DNA of 58,972 nucleotides from Candidatus Woesearchaeota archaeon (GTDB lineage: Archaea; Nanobdellota; Nanobdellia; Woesearchaeales; JAFGLG01): assembly GCA_016928155.1 (NCBI GenBank), contig JAFGLG010000007.1:1-58972 (forward strand), written 5' to 3'. The translations under genes were made by a program, and so were the position numbers. The notes under the pieces were generated by a model, which searched no databases, was not told the DNA's origin, and worked only from the letters and a program-made list of their open reading frames with translations. The first letter of the stretch is position 1, and every line of letters begins with the position of its first letter. Below are positions 28,276-30,785 of the stretch, one piece after another.

Positions 28276-28665
28276 ATGAAACTTGTTGTTGATGCCAACC
28301 CTATAATATCTATGCTGATAGCAGAGAGTCCTGCCATTGATATCATCTTTGACAAGCGATTCGAGATCTTTGCACCAAGGCTGATACTTGATGAGATCAG
28401 TAGGAATATGGGTGTGATCAGGTCAAAAAGCAGGCTATCAAATATGGAGCAGATATTCAGGATGATAAAGAATGAGATCCAGCTGGTGCCTTCAGAGGAG
28501 TATGAATGCTGTGTTCCAGATGCCGAGCAGATATGCCCTGATCCCAAAGATATTGCTTATTTCGCTCTTGCACTGCATTTAGGGTGTGGTATATGGTCAA
28601 ATGAGAAATGGGAGCAGAATCTTGTCAGAGTATATATGACACATGAGCTCATCTCAATGATCTAG
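28276..28665 (+). CDS. PIN-domain toxin-like protein (VapC family)
   Basis: 129 residues. The N-terminal LVVDANPIISML carries the first PIN acidic residue, and an acidic segment DPKDIAYFALALHLG with IWSNEK supplies the later ones, so the nuclease quartet appears present. PIN toxins are Mg-dependent ribonucleases, often cutting tRNA or rRNA. The pairing with the RHH gene upstream supports a toxin role. A TATA-like element is not obvious in the 51-bp gap, so it is probably cotranscribed. Confidence 0.78.
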   Translation: MKLVVDANPIISMLIAESPAIDIIFDKRFEIFAPRLILDEISRNMGVIRSKSRLSNMEQIFRMIKNEIQLVPSEEYECCVPDAEQICPDPKDIAYFALALHLGCGIWSNEKWEQNLVRVYMTHELISMI

Positions 28666-29220: not shown

Positions 29221-29457
29221 ATGATAGACATAGGCAAGGTGAGCTCAAGAGGACAGATCGCGATACCTTCAGAGATCAGGCAGAGATTAGACCTCAAGGA
29301 AGGCAACAAGATACTATTCATATTAGATGAAGATACATTGATCATGAAAAAAGTCACTTCTGAAACATTTTCTGCATTAACAAAACCATTACGGAAGAAG
29401 ACCAAGAAGATTAAAGAAGGCCAAGTCAACAGACTGATACACAATCTCAGGAAATAG
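29221..29457 (+). CDS. AbrB/SpoVT-type antitoxin
   Basis: 78 residues. A swapped-hairpin AbrB-like N-terminus, VSSRGQIAIPSEIRQRLDL, followed by KEGNKILFIL, is typical of archaeal VapB antitoxins. The C-terminal basic half would bind the toxin. A CTTTAAATAC box about 26 nt upstream makes it leaderless. Its stop is 1 nt before the GTG of the downstream PIN gene, an operon with very tight spacing. Confidence 0.85.
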   Translation: MIDIGKVSSRGQIAIPSEIRQRLDLKEGNKILFILDEDTLIMKKVTSETFSALTKPLRKKTKKIKEGQVNRLIHNLRK

Positions 29458-29458
29458 A

Positions 29459-29864
29459 GTGACTCTGGATACTAATGTATTGGTCTCAGGCATGGACAGG
29501 AGACTCATTCAGGATACTTGACTTGATAGACAGAAAAGAATTAAAATGCATCCTGTCAATGGAGATCATAAAAGAATATAACAGAGTGATGAGCAGCGGA
29601 GAGATAATAGAGAAATCAAGGAAGAACAATCTCAAGATATCAAACATAATCAGGAAAGTAATAATGAATTCTATCATTGTGGAACCAAAGACAAGAATAA
29701 ACATTGTGGAAGACAAGGATGACAACAAGTTCATAGAAGCAGCAGTTGAAGGCAAAGCAGATTACATAATAAGCCAGGATAATCATCTATTAAAGATCAA
29801 AGAGTACAGGGGTATAAGAATAATGACTCCAAGGGAGTTCTTGGATGAGCTGTTCTTTGAGTAA
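29459..29864 (+). pseudogene. PIN-domain toxin with a frameshift
   Basis: GTG at 29459 begins VTLDTNVLVSGM, the canonical PIN start with its first acidic residue, but that frame stops soon after. The rest of the domain (WTGDSFRILDLIDRKELKCI, then EDKDDNKFIEAA, ending TPREFLDELFFE) is in another frame. A shift near 29487-29492 is needed to join them. As sequenced, an intact toxin is not produced without frameshifting. A nuclease-null or slippage-dependent locus is the inference; a sequencing or assembly error is the obvious alternative. Confidence 0.75.
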
Positions 29865-30027: not shown

Positions 30028-30145
30028 TTCTGTTTCTTATCCCAACATCTTTTCTCTGTAGTTGAATGTTTCTGATTTCTTAGAGAATATTGCAGATATT
30101 TCTCAGAAGGGCATAAGAAGGATCAAAAGAAAAAATAAAATATGC

Positions 30146-30259
30146 GCCGGCATTGGCTAACCGGTAAGCCGCAAGGTTGATACCCTTGTGTCCTTAGGGA
30201 CTTCGGGGTTCAAATAACTTTCGGTTTTTGCCGGTAGTTTGGAATTACCCGTGCCGGCG
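30146..30259 (+). tRNA. Class II tRNA (Ser-like body) with anticodon GAT and a T-loop intron
   Basis: Exons 30146-30214 and 30246-30259 give acceptor GCCGGCA/TGCCGGC, D stem GGC/GCC with loop TAACCGGTAA, anticodon stem CAAGG/CCTTG, loop TTGATAC (GAT at 30179-30181), variable arm GTCC-TTAG-GGAC, T loop TTCAAAT and discriminator G. The 31-nt intron (30215-30245) has a strict bulge-helix-bulge: TTCA/TGGA with bulges AAT and ATT, and stem AACT/AGTT. The long variable arm and G73 suggest serine identity, yet GAT reads isoleucine codons. G53 faces A61, and no clear TATA box lies 5'. Pseudo-tRNA is the main alternative. Confidence 0.7.
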
Positions 30260-30271
30260 CACATCATTATC

Positions 30272-30379
30272 ATGAGCTGTTCTATAGGTGATCAGGTATG
30301 TAGTTGCGGATTTCGGAAAAATGCAGCCAGAAGCTGGTCCTGCATAAGATGCAGAGAGAATATACTCTACCTAATCTGA
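30272..30379 (+). CDS. Possible 35-residue zinc-ribbon-like protein
   Basis: The ATG at 30272, just after the class II tRNA, opens a frame with VCSCGFRKNAARSWSCIRC, a C-x-C then C-x2-C spacing that could bind one zinc. The stop at 30379 overlaps the convergent HNH gene by 9 bp. No promoter spacing supports the start. Low to moderate confidence. Confidence 0.35.
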   Translation: MSCSIGDQVCSCGFRKNAARSWSCIRCRENILYLI

Positions 30380-30730
30380 CAATGCTTCTGTATCTAATCT
30401 GCTCTTTGCTTTATGGCATCTCTTGCAGAGGGTTCTGAGATTTGCTTTCTCGAATGGCTTGCCTCCCATCTGGATAGGGATGATGTGATCCACATCCAAG
30501 AGTTTCTTGTTATACCTCTTGTTGCAAATACTGCATCTGAACTCATCTCTTCGCAAGACGTCCAAACGTACAAAGAACCAAGTGTTGTTGCGATTGAACT
30601 CATCCATGCACTTCCTGGAGCAATAATGCCTGCGTCCCTCAGCAACAGCATTATCACAGTTCCTGCAGAGCTTATTCCCCTGACTATCAAACCTCTCAGG
30701 TGTGTCCCTGATTCTTGGATAGCGTGCCAT
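30371..30730 (-). CDS. HNH endonuclease-like protein
   Basis: 119 residues from the ATG at 30730, where an AATCTAAAAAA element lies about 27 nt upstream; an ATG at 30745 is also possible. An N-terminal zinc-type CRNCDNAV...CSRKC is followed by CSICNKR, LDVDHIIPIQMGG and LRTLCKRCHKAKS, the HNH core with its metal-binding His and zinc Cys pairs. HNH proteins cleave DNA in restriction, homing and mobile-element contexts. Being next to a tRNA and toxin-antitoxin remnants, it fits an accessory island. Free-standing role unknown. Confidence 0.82.
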   Translation of the reverse strand: MARYPRIRDTPERFDSQGNKLCRNCDNAVAEGRRHYCSRKCMDEFNRNNTWFFVRLDVLRRDEFRCSICNKRYNKKLLDVDHIIPIQMGGKPFEKANLRTLCKRCHKAKSRLDTEALSD

Positions 30731-30785
30731 GAAATAGTATTTCATGCTCTCTTTTTTAGATTTTGCGCTTTTGTCAGAAATAGGA

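Follow-up and report, generated by a model that had tools for sequence, protein, structure and literature searches.

The window, i.e., the whole stretch of 58,972 nucleotides analyzed here (forward strand of contig JAFGLG010000007.1 of a Candidatus Woesearchaeota archaeon), contains a class II tRNA gene with a serine-type body and the anticodon GAT, interrupted by an intron and overlapped on the opposite strand by a predicted antisense unit (Table 1). The acceptor stem GCCGGCA/TGCCGGC is followed by the discriminator G73, and the T arm reads CGGGG-TTCAAA^T-ACCCG with a G53–A61 mismatch. With its cloverleaf, long variable arm, G73, and serine-like body, the gene has the features of class II serine-type tRNAs; being class II with G73, it is not an ordinary tRNA-Ile, which is class I with A73. 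The first-pass annotation had recognized this class and body, the mismatch, and an 83-nt mature RNA, and our analysis confirmed all of them, since 83 nt are left once the 31-nt insert is removed. The possibility that the anticodon is shifted by one base (TGA, serine) was rejected, since the covarying anticodon stem encloses a loop of 7 nt. The gene was missed by ARAGORN and scored 21.9 bits with the Rfam tRNA model, below the cut-off of 29, presumably because of the intron in the T-loop. The 9–10 bp acceptor suggested earlier also proved real. At the window locus, the leader (30143–30152) and the trailer (30252–30261) extend the stem to 10 bp, and extensions of at least 3 bp are common in the window's subtype, being present in 26 of 47 members versus 5 of 25 ordinary Ser tRNAs.

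Table 1. Features of the special tRNA locus and its surroundings in window coordinates.
Feature	Position	Strand	Remarks
PIN-domain (PIN_2) toxin-like gene	28276..28665	+	context only
MazE-type antitoxin (29221-29454) and PIN-domain (PIN_3) toxin (29475-29864), adjacent pair	29221..29864	+	context only
Weak TATA-like element CATAAGAA	30112..30119	+	putative, weak match at the usual tRNA promoter distance
Predicted antisense RNA	30125..30188	-	start near 30188 (tRNA nucleotide 43), complementary to nucleotides 1-43
Class II tRNA precursor, serine body, G73, anticodon GAT	30146..30259	+	120.5 bits with covariance model CM R1, built partly on this very sequence
D arm	30155-30170	+
Anticodon arm CAAGG-TTGATAC-CCTTG	30172..30188	+	covariation in all five stem pairs
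Anticodon GAT	30179-30181	+	within the 7-nt loop TTGATAC
Long variable arm, GTCC/GGAC stem	30189..30203	+
5' T-stem CGGGG and T-loop exon TTCAAA	30204..30214	+
TATA-like element TTATTTGA of the predicted antisense promoter	30210..30217	-	overlaps the T-loop
Bulge-helix-bulge (BHB) intron, 31 nt, position 59/60	30215..30245	+	strict bulge-helix-bulge fit
BRE ACCGAAAG of the predicted antisense promoter, in the intron	30218..30225	-	identical to the BRE consensus of ordinary tRNA promoters
T60, 3' T-stem ACCCG, 3' acceptor, G73	30246..30259	+	A61 mismatched with G53
Small HNH endonuclease gene	30371-30745	-	just downstream of the tRNA

The insert runs TAACTTTCGG...GGAAT. Its 4-bp central helix, TTCA/TGGA (30209–30212/30240–30243), is bordered by two 3-nt bulges, AAT (30213–30215) and ATT (30244–30246), the intronic helix is AACT/AGTT, and the T-stem forms the outer helix, so that the gene carries at its 59/60 intron–exon junctions the bulge-helix-bulge typical of archaeal introns. 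Several ordinary tRNAs (His, Arg, and others) of the home genome (1.48 Mb, 17 contigs) have introns at the same place; hence, position 59/60 is a habit of the lineage, and the idea of an intron peculiar to the special gene was rejected. In genome G000, ordinary tRNAs (loci L017–L030, L036, L046, and L183) had many introns, including T-loop introns at 59/60 and sometimes more than one per gene, and several of these tRNAs were missed or seemingly misnamed by ARAGORN. Because ordinary tRNA finders miss genes with T-loop introns, many such copies may be unannotated.

Small-protein/PIN pairs similar to the one upstream of the window tRNA were seen near loci L051 and L172. No protein neighbor was conserved across the special-tRNA loci, and a conserved protein partner was rejected on this ground. 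The loci showed no sign of plasmids.

The first relatives were obtained with blastn in 40 genomes of the order, and ten homologous precursors could be aligned over their full length. In this alignment, 94.7% of the cells pair, both partners differ in 18 of the 32 pairs, and covariation scored 0.519 versus 0.189 for shuffled data. The covariance model trained on the ten members retrieved four full members in the home genome, C7:30146 (GAT), C2:21573 (GAT), C5:166300 (GAA), and C7:104248 (GAT), together with ordinary Ser tRNAs and damaged copies. Matches were present in 282 of 287 genomes of the order, a count that includes ordinary class II tRNAs; 103 distinct non-serine members among the matches listed (special tRNAs in the following) were examined as sequence stretches, some being classed by simple score cut-offs and patterns picked after the data had been seen. 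Outside the order, no match of at least 80 bits was found among the phylum-wide genomes sampled. The relatives fill one archaeal order (Ca. Woesearchaeota) and bear compensatory changes in their stems. The exact intron pattern occurred in 16 records of named Ca. Woesearchaeota MAGs recovered from various sites and in two bacterial records; it was missing from IMG/VR, and a virus-borne element was rejected accordingly. Two damaged special-tRNA copies were noted in G000, one full of insertions (L047, C5:5785–5961) and one devoid of the D and anticodon arms that kept its T-loop intron (L050, C10:4423–4516). At locus L079 (G113:C38), five class II special tRNAs (TAG, GAT, CAA, GAA, CAA) are arrayed in about 1.9 kb.

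The first-pass annotation had entertained a decayed pseudogene; the large, covarying family spread across the order speaks against this and against a one-off. An ordinary decayed tRNA or a non-decoding tRNA-like RNA, with promoter-like sequence occurring by chance, would agree with the G53–A61 mismatch, the weak forward promoter, the ARAGORN miss, and the Rfam score below the cut-off. The covariation, the breadth of the family, and the promoter statistics given below count against this explanation, which is contradicted by compensatory changes across many genera and which we regard as extremely improbable.

Among the matches listed, a 7-nt anticodon loop was found in 101 of the 103 non-serine members, and 98 of these 101 have A35, with variable bases at positions 34 and 36. 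The covariance model, built on A35 members, could slightly favor A35, yet ordinary Ser tRNAs were among its matches too. The anticodons of the members listed were GAA (28), GAT (19), GAG (14), CAG (13), AAG (10), CAA (7), GAC (3), and a few singles. The codons read by A35 anticodons have U as their second base and stand for Phe, Leu, Ile, or Val. C33, which is unusual for elongator tRNAs, was present in 15 non-serine members among the matches listed. The body was nearer to the local Ser than to Leu tRNAs in 103 of 103 non-serine members (only four Leu tRNAs were compared), nearly all of them have G73, and the home genome has one ordinary SerRS gene. SerRS and LeuRS classically ignore the anticodon. 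Given G73, the Ser body, and an anticodon-blind SerRS, serine is the likely charge of the special tRNAs. The earlier view of a non-serine anticodon on a serine-type body, with serine as the probable charge, is thus supported, whereas decay, a one-off, and the expectation of a GAT conserved in related genomes are not, only A35 being kept. In line with that view, the home genome has a separate, ordinary tRNA-Ile(GAT) with A73 at C15:12120. As this tRNA exists, the window gene is not needed for AUU/AUC (4.4% of all codons in large ORFs of the window), and its role as a stand-in for a missing tRNA-Ile was rejected. An ordinary tRNA-Ser(GCT) of G000 (L012, C6:38206–38289) has an apparent T73 instead of G73.

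Charging with leucine would lead to mild Leu-for-Ile/Phe/Val substitution or to plain Leu decoding. Nearly half of the members listed have Leu anticodons (GAG, CAG, AAG, CAA, TAG, TAA), and LeuRS is anticodon-blind in many organisms. We nevertheless give leucine a very slim chance, considering the nearly universal G73 against A73 in the few ordinary Leu tRNAs seen and the bodies nearer to local Ser in every special tRNA (with four Leu tRNAs compared); leucine charging would also leave the antisense RNA unexplained.

The lack of a clear TATA box, stated in the first-pass annotation, turned out to be half of the picture: forward tRNA promoters are mostly weak in the window's type, the window included, but a strong consensus promoter lies on the opposite strand. 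An upstream TATA at −17 to −8 was rejected as the tRNA promoter on its spacing, which fits leftward transcription. The promoter matrix was trained solely on ordinary tRNA leaders (consensus ACCGAAAGATTTATAAAC, about 33 nt upstream). In the members without an upstream arm copy (see below), to which the window gene belongs, the T-loop intron carries ACCGAAAG-TTATTTGAA or a close variant on its reverse strand. The mean matrix score was 8.0, compared with −4.0 for the introns of ordinary Ser tRNAs, and none of the ordinary T-loops checked in the home genome exceeded −4.5. Since the matrix was trained on ordinary genes, this test is the most independent evidence. With the 20 nt that the variable arm and the T-stem nearly always span together, the predicted antisense start falls on the final base of the anticodon arm (30188 in the window), and the window's antisense RNA would end in a U-rich tract (30125–30142). 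The plus strand of the window-type leaders is rich in A (AT skew 0.39 versus −0.02, p 7e-8; p-values here and below treat related genes as independent, so they are overstated and descriptive only). T runs of at least 5 alone did not separate these leaders (23/40 versus 11/25). A TTTCTC-rich element in them may be a shared operator.

A different arrangement was found at sister loci. A copy of the tRNA's own anticodon or variable arm (score 20 or more) lies upstream of 56 of the 103 special tRNAs among the matches listed, versus 2 of 25 ordinary Ser tRNAs, usually at a distance of 35–60 nt and up to about 100 nt. Variable-arm copies accompany, e.g., C5:166300 and C7:104248 of the home genome. 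In one genome with eight copy-bearing genes, each copy scored best with its own gene; four GAA genes cross-matched partly, and the others matched their own gene only. Loci L067, L095, and L100 have nearly identical bodies and three different anticodon arms, each with a matching copy, and from such comparisons the anticodon arm and its upstream copy appear to change together. In the L079 array, own-arm copies stand upstream of at least four of the five tRNAs.

When the matrix was applied between copy and tRNA, 40 of 43 loci had a leftward promoter with its TATA end 20–24 nt away from the edge of the copy (median 22). Archaeal TATA boxes usually precede the transcription start by this distance, and a minus-strand RNA is therefore predicted to begin at the copy edge; it would open with the complement of the tRNA's own arm. 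Beyond the copy there is a short D-arm-like hairpin, folded in two of three examples, and on the strand of the predicted RNA a T run of at least 5 follows in 53 of 56 cases versus 18 of 74 control stretches; hairpin and T run together are terminator-like. Another possible shared operator is a CGYGTGAGATATATAAA-like element that recurs in the leaders of copy-bearing loci (e.g., L067, L093, and L116), where the forward tRNA promoter is presumed to lie. Truncated and tandem copies (C5:5785 and C10:4423 in G000, the L079 array) could suggest that DNA rearrangement, such as tandem duplication or an RNA-guided insertion into matching sequence, left the arm copies behind or uses them as targets, and that they are not antisense genes. 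The fixed distance of 22 nt from a leftward consensus promoter, the T runs past nearly all of the copies, the restriction of the copies to the anticodon or variable arm, and their near mutual exclusion with the intronic promoter make this highly improbable.

The two arrangements seldom coincide. Among the 103 special tRNAs from the matches listed, 40 had only the intronic promoter, 52 only the upstream copy, 4 both, and 7 neither (descriptive Fisher p 9e-17), and one of the last seven had a copy downstream. Such near-exclusion is expected if one antisense unit is needed and either site can serve. Both arrangements are nearly absent from ordinary tRNA-Ser. Nearly all non-serine members have a promoter on the opposite strand that points at the anticodon. 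Judged by sequence alone, the loci have what an antisense antitoxin calls for, namely a promoter-bearing antisense gene linked to its partner and specific for it. The first-pass annotation was right about the odd Ser-type tRNA; it missed what matters most, the antisense promoter and the predicted RNA linked to this tRNA.

The anatomy of the tRNA, the intron, the family, the A35 rule, the promoters, and the matched copies are read from the DNA itself; for transcription, splicing, charging, pairing in the cell, toxicity, and the biological role, we infer the following scheme. The locus is, with fair probability, an all-RNA toxin–antitoxin module serving addiction or abortive infection, with a mis-serylating tRNA as the toxin and an antisense RNA as the antitoxin. 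The spliced class II tRNA would be charged by the anticodon-blind SerRS and would insert serine at Ile codons (anticodon GAU in the window). The window's antitoxin would be a short antisense RNA, transcribed from the intronic BRE/TATA promoter and starting at tRNA nucleotide 43, that covers the anticodon, D, and 5' acceptor strands and stops at the U-rich tract; at the sister loci, a separate upstream unit would provide an RNA complementary to the tRNA's own anticodon or variable arm. Antisense pairing may block folding, maturation, or decoding of the tRNA. When the labile antisense RNA is lost (gene loss, stress, or infection), the long-lived tRNA would be freed and translation poisoned. Insertion of serine at hydrophobic codons should make a tRNA harmful, and the A35 rule, by which Leu, Ile, Phe, and Val codons are hit and serine codons avoided, is the outcome expected from selection for harm. 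The private antisense RNAs, the mostly weak forward promoters, and the many differently addressed and damaged copies fit such a module. We lean slightly towards the wider proposal of a new two-RNA toxin–antitoxin class, in which a serine-charged tRNA misreading hydrophobic codons is opposed by its own antisense RNA, and the arms and their partners co-diversify as lock-and-key pairs.

Several observations weigh against this proposal. Seven special tRNAs have neither arrangement, many members reside in one genome, which would be costly with a strong toxin, and an addiction role is not obvious from a context lacking a conserved protein neighbor or plasmid sign. The window tRNA may be hardly expressed because its forward promoter is weak. 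The same structural evidence would also suit a real antisense RNA that keeps a regulated miscoding tRNA, not a toxin, off during normal growth, with the tRNA used for stress-induced proteome diversification or as a charged-tRNA donor in a non-ribosomal reaction. Such use recalls the conserved V-arm tRNAs of nematodes, for which mistranslation was undetected (PMC4300185). We find this explanation unlikely, though worth keeping in mind: the many differently addressed copies per genome, each with a private antisense RNA, look like independent modules and not one regulon, and serine at U-middle codons is improbable as a useful swap.

The proposed toxin–antitoxin module resembles type I systems in that a toxin gene is opposed by a small antisense RNA of the same locus with a promoter and a terminator-like end. 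Toxins of type I systems are small proteins. The predicted toxin differs in being a tRNA, the sense RNA here is a covarying tRNA, and the loci have no conserved protein neighbor. CreTA, an RNA–RNA (type VIII) system, likewise has an archaeal RNA toxin acting on translation and held by a partly matching RNA antitoxin; CreT sequesters a rare tRNA and CreA acts through CRISPR Cascade (PMC8501985), whereas here the toxin is predicted to be the tRNA itself and the antitoxin a direct antisense RNA. The nearest relatives in kind seem to be the bacterial allo-tRNAs (Mukai et al. 2017), covered here through the available passages of a review (PMC7609411). Both groups are serine-type with many non-serine anticodons, allo-tRNAs insert Ser at Leu codons in E. 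coli, and a link to transposons or toxin–antitoxin systems was suggested for one group of them. Allo-tRNAs are bacterial with a 12-bp acceptor domain (8/4 or 9/3), whereas the woesearchaeal special tRNAs are archaeal with a 7/5 core, to which the window gene adds an optional 3-bp leader–trailer extension only; the T-loop intron, the A35 rule, and the linked antisense promoter with its predicted RNA further set the latter apart, those review passages naming no antisense partner for allo-tRNAs (PMC7609411). The nematode nev-tRNAs are class II as well, have non-cognate anticodons (one Ile), and could miscode; unlike the special tRNAs, they are eukaryotic and leucine-charged, and the consulted part of the report gives no antisense partner and no detectable mistranslation, a warning that such tRNAs may stay silent in normal growth (PMC4300185). 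A tRNA toxin with an antisense antidote was not found in the literature searched, the coverage of which lacks many journals, and the module looks like a previously undescribed toxin–antitoxin system.

If true, the proposal would add a kind of toxin–antitoxin system with a tRNA as the toxin and an antisense RNA as the antidote, and would explain the persistence of serine-type tRNAs with wrong anticodons, a puzzle shared with the bacterial allo-tRNAs. It would also mean that small-genome archaea turn the translation machinery to selfish or defensive ends. In every lock-and-key pair, nature would offer a testable design for the control of mistranslation.
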